Shown here piece after piece: positions 18,161 to 64,000 of a stretch of 64,000 nucleotides of DNA; position 1 is the first letter of the stretch, and each line of letters starts with the position of its first letter. Source of the stretch: Pseudomonadota bacterium (GTDB taxonomy: Bacteria; Pseudomonadota; Alphaproteobacteria; Acetobacterales; Acetobacteraceae); the NCBI GenBank assembly GCA_021851785.1, contig JAJZBV010000002.1:1-64000 (forward strand). The letters run 5' to 3'. The notes beneath the pieces were generated by a model. The model had not been told where the DNA came from. It worked only from the letters and a program-made list of their open reading frames with translations, and searched no databases. Made by a program: the position numbers and the translations under genes.

Positions 18161-18310
18161 AGGAAAAATCTTCTTTTTCTGAAGAAAAAGAAGCAAAAAG
18201 ACTTTCTTCCCGTTTTCTCGGAGGGGCAATTTTCCTCGGAATGGCAGCGCCGCGGGCACTGCCCAACAGATGAAAATTTTTTTGGTTCTTTTTTTTAAAA
18301 AAGAACAATA
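18161..18310. repeat. Dispersed stem-loop repeat, copy 1 (bidirectional terminator region)
   Basis: An AT-rich island lies between two convergent genes. CTTCTTTTTC (18170-18179) pairs with GAAAAAGAAG (18184-18193). A core from 18185 to 18267 matches, in inverse orientation, 61433-61497. The shared words are AAGCAAAAAGACTTTCTTCC, CTCGGAG and GGGCACTGCCCAAC. This copy carries about 19 extra bases after CTCGGAG. A TTC..GAA A/T hairpin closes the element near 18285-18306. It likely terminates transcription from both sides. Confidence 0.75.
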
Positions 18311-57648: not shown

Positions 57649-58533
57649 ATGCGGCTCTTTCGCCTGCGTCCCCTCGGTCTTGTCGCCGGTGCTTTTCTCG
57701 TCTCGCTACTGGCGTCCGCCGCCGAGGCGGCCCCGATCGGGGTGGTGGCTGCGGAGAATTTTTATGGCGATGTCGCGCGCCAGATCGGCGGCGGCGGCGT
57801 CTCGGTCACCAGCATTCTCGAAAACCCGAACCAGGATCCGCATCTTTTCGAAGCCAGCCCATCGGTCGCGCGGGCGGTCGCGGCCGCGAGAATCGTCGTC
57901 TACAGCGGCATCGATTATGATCCGTGGATGGAAAAGCTGATCGCCGCGTCACCGGGAGAGCGGAGCGTCATCGTCGTCGCCGCGCTGATCGGGCGCAAGA
58001 GTGGCGACAACCCGCATATCTGGTACGATCCCGCCACCATGCGTATCTTTGCCGCGCGTTTCGCCGCCGCCGTCGGCGCCGCCGATCCTGCCCACAAGGC
58101 CGATTTCGCCGCCAATCTGGCACGTTTTGACGCCTCGCTCGCCCCGCTCGAGGCCAAGATCGCGGCGTTGCGCGCCCGTCTCGCGGGCACGCCGGTGACG
58201 GCGACCGAGCCGGTGTTCGGCGAGATGTTCGCCCGCCTCGGCATGGTGGTCCGCGACATGCCCTTCCAGATGGCGGTGATGAACGATACCGAGCCGGCGG
58301 CGAAGGATGTCGCCGCGTTCGAAAACGACCTCCGCCAGCATCGCGTGCGCCTGCTGGTCTATAATGCCCAGGCCAGCGATCCGGTGGCCGAGAAGATGGA
58401 GAAGATCGCGCGCCAATCCGGTGTCCCCGTCGTCGGCGCGAGCGAGACCGAGCCGCCGGGCAAGGATTATCAGCATTGGGTGGCGGCGGAACTCGACGCC
58501 GTCGATCACGCTCTGCCGGCCGCAAGTCATTGA
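57649..58533 (+). CDS. znuA: Zinc ABC transporter substrate-binding protein
   Basis: This 294-residue periplasmic binding protein of cluster A-I has a signal peptide (1-~28, SAAEA). It has ENPNQDPHLFEASPSVARAV with the first metal His (~64), VVYSGIDYDPWMEKL, NPHIWYDPATMRIFA with the second His, and TATEPVFGEMFARLG. There is no His-rich loop, unlike E. coli ZnuA. The Zur box upstream supports zinc as substrate. Its stop overlaps the TTG start of znuC. Confidence 0.9.
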   Translation: MRLFRLRPLGLVAGAFLVSLLASAAEAAPIGVVAAENFYGDVARQIGGGGVSVTSILENPNQDPHLFEASPSVARAVAAARIVVYSGIDYDPWMEKLIAASPGERSVIVVAALIGRKSGDNPHIWYDPATMRIFAARFAAAVGAADPAHKADFAANLARFDASLAPLEAKIAALRARLAGTPVTATEPVFGEMFARLGMVVRDMPFQMAVMNDTEPAAKDVAAFENDLRQHRVRLLVYNAQASDPVAEKMEKIARQSGVPVVGASETEPPGKDYQHWVAAELDAVDHALPAASH

Positions 58534-59354
58534 CAATTCTGGCCTTCACTAACGTGACCCTGGCGCTCGGCGGGCGGGAGGTTTTGCGCGGCATCGATCT
58601 CGCGATCGCGGCGGGGGAGTTCATCGGCCTTCTCGGCCCGAACGGCGCCGGGAAGACGACGCTGCTCCGCGCCGCGCTCGGCCTCCTTCCGCCGCGGAAG
58701 GGCGAGATCCGCGTGTTCGGCGCGCCGGCGCGGCGGGGGAATCCGGCGATCGGCACCATCCCGCAAAGCCGCGCTTTCCCCGGCGCGATGCGGCTTTCGG
58801 GCTATGATCTGGTCGCCGGCGTGGTGCGCGGCCATCGCCTCGGCTTGCCCATCCTCGGTCGCGACGGGCGGCTTGAGGTCGCGCGGGCGCTGGAGCGGGT
58901 CGGGGCGAGCGAATTGGCGCGCCGTCCGCTCGGCGAACTCTCCGGCGGCGAGCGCCAGCGCCTGCTGCTCGCCCAGGCGCTGATCGGCCGGCCGCGTTTG
59001 CTGCTCCTCGACGAGCCGCTGGTCAATCTCGACCCGCGGCATCAGCGGGAGATCGTCGCCCTGGTGCGCGACGTCCAGCGTGATTTCGGCCTGACGGTGA
59101 TTTTCGCCACCCACGAGATCAACCCGCTGCTCGGCGCGCTCGATCGGGTGCTCTATCTCGGCGGCGGCGCGGCGGCGCTCGGGACGGTCGAGGCGGTGAT
59201 CACCGGCCCGGTGCTGTCCCGCCTTTACGGCGCGCCGATCGAGGTGGTGCGGCTCGGCGGGCGGATTTTCGTCTTCTCCGGCGCGGCCAACCTCGAAGCC
59301 GAGGCGCATCTTCATGAAGACGGGGTATCCCACGCCCATGCGCCCCATGCTTGA
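58530..59354 (+). CDS. znuC: Zinc ABC transporter ATP-binding protein
   Basis: This 274-residue ATPase has Walker A GLLGPNGAGKTTLLRAAL (~34-51), Q-loop GTIPQSRAF, signature GELSGGERQRLLLAQA and Walker B PRLLLLDEPLVNLDPRHQRE, then IFATHEINPLLGALD. The C-terminus is His-rich (AEAHLHEDGVSHAHAPHA), plausibly a cytosolic zinc-sensing tail. The start is a TTG at 58530 overlapping the znuA stop as TTGA; no ATG fits upstream of Walker A. It overlaps znuB. Confidence 0.9.
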   Translation: MTILAFTNVTLALGGREVLRGIDLAIAAGEFIGLLGPNGAGKTTLLRAALGLLPPRKGEIRVFGAPARRGNPAIGTIPQSRAFPGAMRLSGYDLVAGVVRGHRLGLPILGRDGRLEVARALERVGASELARRPLGELSGGERQRLLLAQALIGRPRLLLLDEPLVNLDPRHQREIVALVRDVQRDFGLTVIFATHEINPLLGALDRVLYLGGGAAALGTVEAVITGPVLSRLYGAPIEVVRLGGRIFVFSGAANLEAEAHLHEDGVSHAHAPHA

Positions 59355-60156
59355 CTACGATTTCATGCGGAACGCCTTCGCCGCCGCCGGCATCGTCGCC
59401 GTCACGGCGGGGATCACCGGGTATTTCCTGGTGCTGCGCGGGCAGAGTTTTGCCGGCCACGCCCTTTCCCATGTCGGCTTCACCGGAGCGACCGGAGCGG
59501 CGCTGTTCGGCGCGGCACCGCTCGCCGGGCTGATCGTCGCGACGCTGCTGGCCGGGCTCGGGATGGGGGCGCTCGGCGTCGACCGCGCGAGCCGCGATGT
59601 CGCGATCGGCATGGTGCTCGCGTTCGCGCTCGGGCTCGGGATGCTGTTTCTGCATTTCTTCACCTCATACGCGACCGTCGCGACCGCGCTTCTGTTCGGC
59701 AATGTGCTGGCGGTGGAGCGGGGGACGATCGCGTTGCTCGCCGCTCTTGGCGGCGGTGCGCTCGCCGCGCTCGCGGTGATCTCGCGCCCGCTGCTGTTCG
59801 CGAGCCTGCAGCCCGAACTCGCCGAGGCCAAGGGGGTTTCGCTCCGGCTCCACGCGGTGCTGTTTCTCGCCATCATCGCCGTGGCCACGGCGCTGGCGGC
59901 GGAGGTGGTCGGCGTGTTGCTGGTGTTCACCTTGCTGGTCGGGCCGGCGGCGGCGGCGATGCCTGCGACGCGCCATGTCGCGACCGGGGTTGCGCTGGCC
60001 GCAACGCTGGCCCTCGCCGAAGCCTGGGGCGGCCTCGCCCTTGCTTATTACACCGATTGGCCGGCAAGTTTCGCGATCACCCTGCTCAGCGCGGGCGCCT
60101 ACGCGCTCGCCCATCTCGGCCCCGAGGCTCTGGCGCGGCTTCGCGGGCGGCGCTAA
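59338..60156 (+). CDS. znuB: Zinc ABC transporter permease
   Basis: This ~272-residue permease of the ZnuB/ABC-3 family has eight or so hydrophobic segments. Motifs are MLDYDFMRNAFAAAGIVAVT, YFLVLRGQSFAGHALSHVGF (~30-49, the family signature), AIGMVLAFALGLGMLFLHFF and VVGVLLVFTLLVGPAAAAMP. ATGs at 59314, 59338 and 59347 are possible; I chose 59338. All overlap the znuC 3' end, implying coupled translation within znuACB. Confidence 0.9.
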   Translation: MRPMLDYDFMRNAFAAAGIVAVTAGITGYFLVLRGQSFAGHALSHVGFTGATGAALFGAAPLAGLIVATLLAGLGMGALGVDRASRDVAIGMVLAFALGLGMLFLHFFTSYATVATALLFGNVLAVERGTIALLAALGGGALAALAVISRPLLFASLQPELAEAKGVSLRLHAVLFLAIIAVATALAAEVVGVLLVFTLLVGPAAAAMPATRHVATGVALAATLALAEAWGGLALAYYTDWPASFAITLLSAGAYALAHLGPEALARLRGRR

Positions 60157-60211: not shown

Positions 60212-61396
60212 GTGGCCGCGCGAAACGGGTGGGAAGCCGCCGTGACGACATTCCAGCAACGCCGTCTCGGCGTCATGGCGGCCGGCTTCGGCACCTTCAT
60301 CAATCTTTACACCACCCAGGCGATTCTTGCGGTTCTCGCCGGCGCCTATGGTGTGCCGCTCGCCGAAACCGGCCTCACCGTCACCGCGCCGCTCGCCGCC
60401 GTCGCGATCGTTGCCCCCTTCGTCGGCTCGATTTCGGATCGGCTGGGGCGCAAGCGGCTGATCGTCGGCGCCGGCTTTCTCCTCGCGCTGCCGACGCTCG
60501 CCATCGCGTTCGCGCCGAGTTTTGCCACCCTGATCGCGTTTCGTTTCGCGCAAGGGCTGCTGCTGCCGTTCATCTTCGCGGTGACGATCGCCTATATCGG
60601 CGATGAGGCGACGGATGCGGAGAATATCAGCCTCGCCGGCAATTATTCCATCGGCACCATTCTCGGCGGGTTCTGTGGCCGGCTCGTCGCCGGCTACACC
60701 GCGGCGCTGATCGGCTGGCGGGCCGGGTTCATCGTCCTCGCCGCGCTCACCGCCACGGCGGCGCTGATCGTCGCGCTGTTCCTCCCATCCGAGCGGCGTT
60801 TCCGCCCGCAGCGCGGCTTCCGCGCCGCCCTCGACGGATTTGCCGCCCATCTCGTCAACCGGCGCCTGATCGCGACCTATGCCGCCGGCTTCGCGGTGTT
60901 GTTCTCGATCGTCGCGACCTTCACCTTCGTCAATTTCCTGCTGGCGGCGCCGCCTTATCGGCTCGGTCCGGCGCAGCTCAGCAACGTGTTCGCGACCTAT
61001 CTGGTATCACTCATCTCGACGCCGCTGGCGACGCGGCTCGCTATCCGCTTCGGCCGGCGCGTGACCCTGGCACTTGCGGCGTTGGTCGGGATCGCCGGGC
61101 TGCTGCTGACGCTCGCGGCACCACTCGGCTGGATCGTCGCCGGGCTCTCGCTCGGGGTGGGTGGGATGTTCATCGAACAGGTGATGGCGCTCGGCTTCAT
61201 CGGTGCGGTGGCGGCGCGGGCGAAATCCACCGCCGTCGGGCTCTATGTCACGTTCTATTATATTGGCGGCAGCCTCGGCGGCCTGTTGCCGGCGGGGATC
61301 TGGCACGCCGCCGGCTGGCCGGGCTGTGTCGCCCTCGTGGTCATCGTCCAGCTCATCATGCTGGCGATCGCGCTGCCGTTCTGGCGCCCGCTCTGA
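60212..61396 (+). CDS. MFS transporter (YnfM-like)
   Basis: This ~394-residue major facilitator has 12 predicted helices. N-terminal FGTFINLYTTQAILAVLAGA and VGSISDRLGRKRLIVGAGFL (motif A, ~75-95) are followed by FAQGLLLPFIFAVTIAYIGD and AGNYSIGTILGGFCGRLVAG. C-terminal FYYIGGSLGGLLPAGIWHAA resembles YnfM/drug-type exporters. GTG 60212 has GGAGGGGG six bases upstream; GTG 60242 is an alternative. It follows znuB by ~55 bp and could be in its operon. The substrate is unknown. Confidence 0.82.
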   Translation: MAARNGWEAAVTTFQQRRLGVMAAGFGTFINLYTTQAILAVLAGAYGVPLAETGLTVTAPLAAVAIVAPFVGSISDRLGRKRLIVGAGFLLALPTLAIAFAPSFATLIAFRFAQGLLLPFIFAVTIAYIGDEATDAENISLAGNYSIGTILGGFCGRLVAGYTAALIGWRAGFIVLAALTATAALIVALFLPSERRFRPQRGFRAALDGFAAHLVNRRLIATYAAGFAVLFSIVATFTFVNFLLAAPPYRLGPAQLSNVFATYLVSLISTPLATRLAIRFGRRVTLALAALVGIAGLLLTLAAPLGWIVAGLSLGVGGMFIEQVMALGFIGAVAARAKSTAVGLYVTFYYIGGSLGGLLPAGIWHAAGWPGCVALVVIVQLIMLAIALPFWRPL

Positions 61397-61432
61397 AGAG
61401 AAAGTCGTTCTTTTTCAAAAGGATTTTTTCCC

Positions 61433-61497
61433 GTTGGGCAGTGCCTGCGGCACTGCCGCTCCGAGAAGCCGGGAAGAAAGTCTTTTTGCTTCTTTTT
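61433..61497. repeat. Dispersed stem-loop repeat, copy 2
   Basis: This 65-bp segment is the inverse complement of the core at 18185-18267. It includes GGCAGTGCC/GGCACTGCC, a perfect 9-bp stem with a 3-nt loop, and the words CCGAGAAGCCGGGAAGAAAG and TCTTTTTGCTTCTTTTT. It lies, like copy 1, between two convergent genes (the MFS transporter and a small lipoprotein). Confidence 0.75.
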
Positions 61498-61526
61498 CGG
61501 AAGTCAAAAGAAGCTTTTTTTATTTT
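61488..61526 (+). terminator. Intrinsic terminator of the MFS transporter gene
   Basis: GCTTCTTTT (61488-61496) pairs with AAAAGAAGC (61506-61514), followed by TTTTTTTATTTT. The stem partly overlaps the dispersed repeat copy 2. On the opposite strand the A/T flanks may also end the leftward lipoprotein transcript. Confidence 0.8.
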
Positions 61527-61529
61527 CTC

Positions 61530-61649
61530 TCAGTACCCCATGTGCTGCTGCATGGTTTCATTGTCCGGCACCACCGGCTGGTTCCGGTTGGCGCAGCCGA
61601 GGGTCAGGCCGAGGGACGCCAGCATCAGCGTCCAGAGAATCAGTTTCAT
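61530..61649 (-). CDS. Micro-lipoprotein 1 (39 aa)
   Basis: This short ORF encodes MKLILWTLMLASLGLTLGCA followed by NRNQPVVPDNETMQQHMGY and a stop. It is a typical lipoprotein: Lys after Met, hydrophobic helix, lipobox LTLGC (Cys19), then a 20-residue polar tail. A GGGAGAGCAAGG ribosome binding site precedes the ATG. It shares the Met-Gly-Tyr ending with the next gene upstream. It is the third of three small lipoprotein genes read leftwards after nrdA. The function is unknown. Confidence 0.65.
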   Translation of the reverse strand: MKLILWTLMLASLGLTLGCANRNQPVVPDNETMQQHMGY

Positions 61650-61688
61650 CCTTGCTCTCCCGTTGTTGCGCGCCAAGAATCGCCGACG

Positions 61689-61814
61689 TCAATACCCCAT
61701 GCGCGGCATCTGGCCGGGCACCGGCTGCTGCTGGTCCTGGGATTGCGGCGCCGGTTGCTGGCAGGCAGCCAGACCGATCATCACCACCAGCGCGGCCCAA
61801 GGCATTGATTTCAC
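61689..61814 (-). CDS. Micro-lipoprotein 2 (41 aa)
   Basis: This short ORF encodes MKSMPWAALVVMIGLAACQQ, a Gln/Pro-rich stretch PAPQSQDQQQPVPGQ and the end MPRMGY. The lipobox is GLAAC (Cys18). The start is GTG 61814 (ATG 61805 is possible). The mature peptide would be only ~24 residues. The Met-Gly-Tyr end matches micro-lipoprotein 1, suggesting they are paralogues. It lies between the other two small lipoprotein genes with gaps of 39 and 16 bp. Confidence 0.65.
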   Translation of the reverse strand: MKSMPWAALVVMIGLAACQQPAPQSQDQQQPVPGQMPRMGY

Positions 61815-61830
61815 AAAAAACCCCCATGCA

Positions 61831-61971
61831 CTACATTCCGTGTAGCGGCGGCAACGCCCCAGGCACCGCCGGCGCCTCCGAAGGAGATGGCGGCGCGGTC
61901 TGATGGCGGCAAGAGGCGAAGACGGTAAGTCCGGCGATCAAAACTACGCGAAGGAAAAGGCTGACCGTCAT
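61831..61971 (-). CDS. Micro-lipoprotein 3 (46 aa)
   Basis: This short ORF encodes MTVSLFLRVVLIAGLTVFAS, then CRHQTAPPSPSEAPAVPGAL and PPLHGM. The lipobox is VFASC (Cys21) and a Pro/Ala-rich tail follows. A good ribosome binding site (GGGAGGG, 7 bases before the ATG) supports translation. It starts 50 bp after the nrdA stop on the same strand and is the first of three tandem micro-lipoproteins, so it may be co-transcribed with nrdA. The function is unknown. Confidence 0.65.
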   Translation of the reverse strand: MTVSLFLRVVLIAGLTVFASCRHQTAPPSPSEAPAVPGALPPLHGM

Positions 61972-62021
61972 GGCGACCCTCCCGGTTTTGCCTCCCGCGC
62001 CGGGTAAAAAAACGCTCTATC

Positions 62022-63845
62022 TCATTGGCAGGCGAGGCATTCCTCATAATCGGCGACCCGCGCGGCCGGCGGCGCGGGCTGGAGTTCCTCCGGGCGCACC
62101 GCTTTCTCGCTGACATTGTCGGCGCGCTGGATGGAAAGCGAGCGGCAATAATAGAGCGATTTCAGGCCGCGCTTCCAGGCCAGCATATGGATCTGGTGCA
62201 GATCGCGCTTATGGACATTGGCGGGGAGGAAGATATTGACCGACTGGCTCTGACAGACGAACGGCGTGCGGTCGGCGGCGTGCTCGACCACCCAGCGCTG
62301 ATCGAGTTCGAACGCGGTTTTGTACACCGCCTTTTCGTGCTCGGTAAGAAAATCGAGGTGCTGCACGCTGCCTTTGTTCAGCGTGATCGAGGACCACACG
62401 GCATCGTTGTCATGCCCCTTTTCCGCGAGCAAGGCCTGGAGATGGCGGTTGCGCACGATGAAGCTGCCGGAGAGAGTCTTCTGGAGAAAGACATTGGCGG
62501 CGATCGGCTCGATCCCGGGGCTCGCATTGCCGGCGATGATCGAGATCGAGGCGGTCGGCGCGATCGCGATCTTGTTCGAGAAACGCTCGGAAAAACCATA
62601 CTCGGCGGCGTCGGGGCAGGGGCCGCGTTCCTCGGCGAGGAGGCGCGAGGCGGCGTCCGCCTGGGCGCGGATATGCTGGAACATGCGCTTGTTCCAGACC
62701 TTGGCGATGACGCTCTCGAAGGGCACGTGTTGCGATTGCAGGAAGGAATGGAAACCCATCACCCCGAGCCCGACCGAGCGCTCGCGCAGCGCCGCATATT
62801 TCGCCCGCGCCATGCTCTCCGGGGCGCGATCGATGAAATCCTGCAAGACATTGTCGAGGAAACGCATCAGATCCTCGATGAAGAGGGGATGGTCCTTCCA
62901 CGCGAGCCAGTGTTCGAGATTGACCGACGACAGGCAGCAGACGGCGGTGCGCTGGCGCCCGTGCTGGTCGATCCCGGTCGGCAGGGTGATCTCCGAGCAG
63001 AGATTGGAGGTTTTGACCTCGAGCCCGGCGAGTTTCTGATGCTCGGGGCGGAGCCGGTTCACCTGGTCGGAGAAGATCAGGTAAGGCTCGCCGGTTTCGA
63101 CGCGGGCGGTGAGGATCCTGATCCAGAGCGCGCGGGCGGAGATGCCGCGCACCACCGCGCCGTCTTTCGGCGAGACCAGCGGCCAGGGCTCATCCGCCTC
63201 GACCGCGCGCATGAAGGCGTCCGAGACCAGGATGCCATGATGGAGATTGAGCGCCTTGCGATTGGGATCGCCGCCGGTCGGGCGGCGGATTTCGACGAAC
63301 TCCTCGATCTCGGGATGCGAGACCGGCAGATAGACCGCCGCCGAGCCGCGCCGGAGGCTGCCCTGCGAGATCGCCAGCGTCAGGCTGTCCATCACCCGGA
63401 TGAACGGGATCACCCCCGAGGTTTTGCCGTTCTGCCCGACTTTCTCGCCGATCGAGCGCAGATTCCCCCAATAGCTCCCGATCCCGCCGCCCTTGGAGGC
63501 GAGCCAGACGTTTTCGTTCCAGAGATCGACGATGCCGTCCAGACTGTCGGACGCCTCGTTCAGAAAGCAGGAAATCGGCAGGCCGCGCGCGGTGCCGCCA
63601 TTGGAGAGCACCGGGGTCGCCGGCATGAACCAGAGCCGGCTCATATAGTCATAGAGCCGCTGCGCGTGCCCCGAATCATCACCGTAATAGCTCGCGACGC
63701 GGGCGAAGAGATCCTGATAGCCCTCGCCGGGCAGCAGATAGCGGTCATCGAGGGTGGCGCGGCCGAAATCGGTGAGCAGCGCATCGCGGGCGCGATCGAC
63801 ATGGATTTGCTGGCGCCCGGGCAATTGGATATCGGTATCGAGCAC
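62022..63845 (-). CDS. nrdA: Class I ribonucleotide reductase alpha subunit
   Basis: This subunit reduces NDPs to dNDPs. The 607-residue protein lacks the N-terminal ATP-cone and begins near the catalytic domain. Active-site residues are visible: redox Cys in GLPISCFLNEASDSLD, the thiyl triad in KTSNLCSEITLPTG (N-x-C-x-E), the partner Cys in TAVCCLSSVNLEH, the tyrosine dyad in LKSLYYCRSLS for radical transfer from NrdB, and the C-terminal CxxC in EECLACQ for thioredoxin or glutaredoxin. No nrdB is next to it in the window; downstream are three micro-lipoproteins. Confidence 0.93.
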   Translation of the reverse strand: MLDTDIQLPGRQQIHVDRARDALLTDFGRATLDDRYLLPGEGYQDLFARVASYYGDDSGHAQRLYDYMSRLWFMPATPVLSNGGTARGLPISCFLNEASDSLDGIVDLWNENVWLASKGGGIGSYWGNLRSIGEKVGQNGKTSGVIPFIRVMDSLTLAISQGSLRRGSAAVYLPVSHPEIEEFVEIRRPTGGDPNRKALNLHHGILVSDAFMRAVEADEPWPLVSPKDGAVVRGISARALWIRILTARVETGEPYLIFSDQVNRLRPEHQKLAGLEVKTSNLCSEITLPTGIDQHGRQRTAVCCLSSVNLEHWLAWKDHPLFIEDLMRFLDNVLQDFIDRAPESMARAKYAALRERSVGLGVMGFHSFLQSQHVPFESVIAKVWNKRMFQHIRAQADAASRLLAEERGPCPDAAEYGFSERFSNKIAIAPTASISIIAGNASPGIEPIAANVFLQKTLSGSFIVRNRHLQALLAEKGHDNDAVWSSITLNKGSVQHLDFLTEHEKAVYKTAFELDQRWVVEHAADRTPFVCQSQSVNIFLPANVHKRDLHQIHMLAWKRGLKSLYYCRSLSIQRADNVSEKAVRPEELQPAPPAARVADYEECLACQ

Positions 63846-63910
63846 GGCTTTTCCCTCTTGCGATTCTACCCGCTGAGCGCCCTATCCTGCCGTAAAATCC
63901 CCCCGCGTCA

Positions 63911-63942
63911 ATCTATATCTTGAGTTGTTAATCGCGATTAAC
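63911..63942. promoter_or_regulatory. nrdA upstream region: NrdR-like box and palindrome
   Basis: About 70-100 bp upstream of nrdA, CTATATCTTGAGT (63913-63925) resembles an alphaproteobacterial NrdR box. Next to it GTTAATCGCGATTAAC (63927-63942) is a perfect 16-bp palindrome. It includes TTAA-N6-TTAA, close to but not equal to the CtrA spacing of seven. Both assignments are tentative. Confidence 0.4.
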
Positions 63943-63953
63943 CACTACCCCTG

Positions 63954-63981
63954 GGAAATCGCGCCGATGCGCGCGATTTCC
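63954..63981. repeat. 11-bp perfect inverted repeat at the right edge
   Basis: GGAAATCGCGC (63954-63964) pairs with GCGCGATTTCC (63971-63981) around CGATGC. No T-run follows on either strand. It may be a leader stem-loop or operator of a gene starting beyond the window. Confidence 0.6.
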
Positions 63982-64000
63982 ACCGGAGAGCGCGCGGATG

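Follow-up and report, generated by a model that had tools for sequence, protein, structure and literature searches.

The entericidins EcnA and EcnB are tandem lipoproteins of about 40-48 amino acids, and the lysis lipoproteins of colicin systems are also small and carry a lipobox. According to the rule established for enteric bacteria, a lipoprotein without an aspartate after its cysteine is sent to the outer membrane. The C-termini of outer-membrane proteins are in turn recognised by DegS. LptM (YifL), a small lipoprotein of the outer membrane, contacts LptDE through a short peptide (PMC10567701). Here, we describe three tandem open reading frames, named A, B, and C, that follow nrdA in a stretch of 64,000 nucleotides (the window) from a member of the Acetobacteraceae. 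Annotation readily overlooks genes of about 40 codons, and C, a genus-core microprotein that is under purifying selection and lacks recognisable relatives outside the genus, offers a tractable lineage-specific case with an invariant short tip. The array as a whole is a case of duplication, fusion, and decay of neighboring genes among close relatives.

Three Small Lipoprotein Reading Frames Behind nrdA

The upstream neighbor of the array, which lies outside the small-lipoprotein family, is nrdA, the gene for the 607-residue alpha subunit of ribonucleoside-diphosphate reductase (minus strand, 62022..63845; NF006577, 1028.9 bits, over cut-off; PF02867/PF00317). Starting 50 nt past its stop at 62022, three tandem reading frames are found on the same strand, each with the basic and hydrophobic signal and the lipobox that the original prediction had described. 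Frame A (61831..61971, 46 codons, ATG start) has the lipobox FAS-C21 and a tail ending in PGALPPLHGM; B (61689..61814, 41 codons, GTG start) has LAA-C18 and ends in PGQMPRMGY; C (61530..61649, 39 codons, ATG start) has TLG-C19 and ends in ETMQQHMGY. The last four residues are thus LHGM in A, RMGY in B, and HMGY in C, so that the end MGY is shared by B and C and HGM is found in A, as claimed. All three products have the sequence features of bacterial lipoproteins, i.e., a basic n-region, a hydrophobic h-region, a PS51257-type lipobox, and a cysteine near residue 15-35. The lipobox cysteine of FASC, LAAC, and TLGC is kept in the orthologues of A, B, and C, the TLGC of C being less than the most typical form. 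When both strands of the 64 kb were filtered strictly for frames of 30-70 aa with a basic start, a hydrophobic core, and a PS51257-type lipobox, A, B, and C were the only reading frames that passed. First-order shuffles of the intergenic stretch (n = 3000) gave no hit in 2990 cases and one hit in 10, and never two or three.

A ribosome binding site or suitable spacing had been proposed for each frame, and this holds best for A and C. Upstream of A, the likely site is GGGAGG (minus strand, 61978..61983), 6 nt before the ATG, and the same motif precedes A in two related genomes, G001 and G002. For C, GGGAG and AAGG are found before the ATG (minus strand, 61650..61661), with a similar purine-rich stretch in the relatives. 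The Shine-Dalgarno sequence of B is weak in the window genome (GGGGG-TTTTTT-GTG), with the stronger GAGGAGG before the same GTG in G001 and G002.

An MFS transporter gene lies past C in convergent orientation and ends at 61396. The stretch between the two genes (61400-61520) contains an inverted repeat (GCAGTGCCGCAGGCACTGCC), which is flanked by T- and A-rich sequence; G003 and G004 have a similar sequence in this position, and a second copy with 2 mismatches is located at 18244-18263. Possibly, this element is a dispersed repeat and also serves as a terminator in both directions; the scan for intrinsic terminators after C gave no match on the minus strand. No Rfam family matched in 61300-64000. 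Further away, the plus strand carries a set of genes that, from a reading of their translations, resemble a metal ABC transporter (binding protein, ATPase, and permease; 57649-60156).

Distribution Within and Beyond the Genus

Six genomes of the genus, mostly draft assemblies, were compared (G000, that of the window, to G005), and a profile of the peptides gave strong full-length matches in every one of them. C is present in exactly one copy per genome, its end ETMQQHMG is invariant, and a DNA pattern for the tip MQQHMG likewise occurs exactly once in each of the six. Orthologues of A and of B were found in G001 and G002, so that each is conserved in three genomes including that of the window. 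The order A-B-C after nrdA is the same in G001 as in the window. In G002, A and B stand behind nrdA and C lies on another contig; G003 has C together with a decayed A/B fusion, in which the usual start codon is not visible and adjacent TAA and TAG codons occur inside; G005 has C and a single A/B-type gene with the end PGEMPRINGM. A and B are absent from G004, where C is found ~1.3 kb past nrdA. The sequence that replaces A and B there (L085) includes an opposite-strand reading frame that by eye resembles a PEP-CTERM-type secreted protein.

The C gene of G002 (MKALVWSFLLISLGLTLGCASQSNQPVVQDNETMQQHMGLW; L115, 1501-1617) is diverged and convergent with mlaF, and its product ends in MGLW rather than MGY, with ETMQQHMG intact. 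It also adjoins a gene of the old-yellow-enzyme type. Since this mlaF is 87-92% identical to the mlaF of the other five genomes, the contig fits the genus. The silent-site divergence of this C is far above that of the other copies, so that this copy may have been transferred or may have separated long ago; G002 is an 86%-complete draft. On the far side of mlaF, C was missing from the 427 nt readable in G000 and likewise from G001 and G003; the contig of G004 ends there and G005 was left out of this comparison.

The array is therefore unstable, with A and B lost or fused and decayed, the array interrupted, or C placed beside mlaF (one genome). C is retained despite altered surroundings, whether ~1.3 kb of other sequence precedes it (G004) or mlaF is its neighbor (G002). 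Because C occurs once in each of the six genomes, and A and B are lost, fused, or decayed, C is a genus-core gene and A and B are labile. The persistence of C away from nrdA also led us to set aside a functional link of the array to nrdA. The association is positional and probably incidental, and the nrdA transcript may run into A. An operon link with nrdB was rejected as well, as the only nrdB-type gene found (PF00268) lies ~134 kb from nrdA on the same contig.

Profile searches of 397 genomes of the family and 385 of the class gave strong matches in this genus only; because only part of the first-look candidates of each genome was scored, very distant relatives could be missed. Eight weak matches from the family and class were inspected and dismissed, being larger lipoproteins with just the signal in common or frames whose tail does not match. 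A scan for lipobox-containing frames of 25-75 aa behind nrdA (85 loci with an nrdA end, other genera included) found such peptides in members of the genus only. Conservation of the array after nrdA across Acetobacteraceae was found by neither the scan nor the family-wide profiles, and inside the genus C occurs away from nrdA too. The search of viral contigs found no relatives, and the plasmid search no convincing one. Judged from these surveys, A, B, and C are restricted to a single genus of Acetobacteraceae.

Selection and Kinship

Pairwise dN/dS is 0.05-0.38 for C (pairs with finite dS), 0.08-0.37 for B, and 0.50-0.58 for A. A deficit of replacements, relative to randomly redistributing the same substitutions, was found for C in nine of ten pairs (the exception is G000/G001), for B in the one pair tested (p 0.006), and for A in the two pairs that include G000 (p 0.03-0.04), not in G001/G002; the pairs are mutually non-independent. 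In C, 21 of the 39 third codon positions vary, compared with 12 first and 7 second positions, and within ETMQQHMGY only third positions vary (five nrdA-linked copies). Unconserved frames with a dN/dS near one, named beforehand as grounds for abandoning the prediction, are not what B and C display, and A is the weaker case. It is well supported by these substitution patterns that B and C are protein-coding genes under purifying selection and not chance reading frames, and A is probably protein-coding. Within the genus, the idea of tandem micro-lipoproteins is therefore backed by conserved frame, motif, and selection.

In most comparisons, the tails of A, of B, and of the single A/B-type gene of G005 are more alike than shuffled sequences (p 0.0006-0.003), with A2/B0 as the exception (p 0.17). 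On this likeness, the A and B tails are paralogous and go back to one A/B-type ancestral gene. The C tail compared with the A/B tails gave p 0.08-1.0 against shuffles, 0.08 being the best value. As the C tail fails this test, a common descent of C with A and B is suggested only by the layout and the MGY end.

Possible Function and Alternative Explanations

The three products are probably outer-membrane lipoproteins. They would be exported by the Sec system, lipidated at the cysteine, and then cleaved, which is predicted to leave mature peptides of 21-26 residues. Since no aspartate follows the cysteine, the enteric rule would place them in the outer membrane, a rule that may not hold in this group. 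The variable Pro/Gln-rich middle would serve as a spacer or linker, and the conserved C-terminal stretch (ETMQQHMGY in C; PGxMPRMGY or PGxMPPLHGM in B and A) as a tip for docking to a partner in the periplasm or outer membrane, which it would tether or cap. A variable spacer with an invariant tip suggests the tip as the functional part, and from this location of conservation we infer, as the simplest view, that it is a peptide by which the lipoproteins dock to a partner in the envelope. The same tip could equally bind metal or act as a protease or PDZ signal. Taken together, we assign a probability of roughly 0.5 to the reading that these are genus-restricted lipoprotein genes with a conserved tip that docks on such a partner. 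More tentatively, they may be genus-born tethered ligands in which, past the signal, only the C-terminal Met/His-Gly-Tyr tip is strongly conserved; this tip would regulate a single envelope machine, and the duplicated members would differ in specificity.

Size, tandem layout, and lipobox recall EcnA/EcnB and the colicin lysis lipoproteins, and gain, loss, and decay among close relatives, as seen for A and B, are common for toxic modules. It is nevertheless unlikely that A, B, and C are toxic lipoproteins of this kind, working as a toxin-antidote pair or triggering lysis in the envelope. The entericidin-like character considered in the original prediction finds no counterpart in the entericidin model (PF08085), which matches none of the three, and the PF08085 matches over cut-off in G002 and G005 are on other contigs, away from the array. 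Moreover, C belongs to the core of the genus in single copy, its end does not vary, and its persistence without intact A and B (G003 and G004) implies that C is not one member of an obligate pair. Chance frames in the 3' region of nrdA, never translated, would be short and genus-only, and A is indeed poorly constrained; however, the selection on C and B is a strong argument against this explanation, which, with the shuffle result and the presence of C in every genome of the genus, becomes highly improbable.

Both remaining explanations concern the tip. The MxxHM of C, the MxxM of B, and the MPPLHGM of A in G001 and G002 would suit the binding of copper or another soft metal by a membrane-tethered periplasmic buffer in a metal-rich acidic habitat. 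We consider this improbable, as the first methionine is lost in A of the window genome (PGALPPLHGM), the conserved residues include G, Y, E, T, and Q, which are needless for metal binding, and the metal transporter-like genes of the window are on the strand opposite to the array. The peptides retain an aromatic or hydrophobic residue at their free C-terminus, and with the recognition of outer-membrane protein ends by DegS in mind, GY or GM could be a ligand of a periplasmic PDZ protease (DegS/DegP type) that reports or dampens envelope stress. However, the different end of C in G002 and the lack of a linked stress gene make such a role very unlikely. The docking of a conserved tip on an envelope partner is the reading we prefer.

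Comparison With Known Systems

None of the three products has a match above cut-off in Pfam or NCBIfam; DUF6491 was rejected for B, as the match is below cut-off (13.7 bits vs. 27.5) and mostly in the signal. EcnA and EcnB (PF08085) are similar in length and in the tandem arrangement of their genes, but A, B, and C do not match the family model and have a conserved C-terminal tip instead. The colicin lysis, or bacteriocin release, lipoproteins are similar in size and lipobox, whereas A, B, and C have no adjacent bacteriocin gene in the stretch read and no plasmid homologue. LptM_cons (PF13627) has no match over cut-off to A, B, or C, or anywhere in the genus. As a small outer-membrane lipoprotein that acts by short-peptide contacts with its partner, LptM/YifL is still the nearest working analogy (PMC10567701), with the difference that PF13627 covers the lipobox and the first part of the mature protein, whereas the conserved stretch of A, B, and C is at the C-terminal end.
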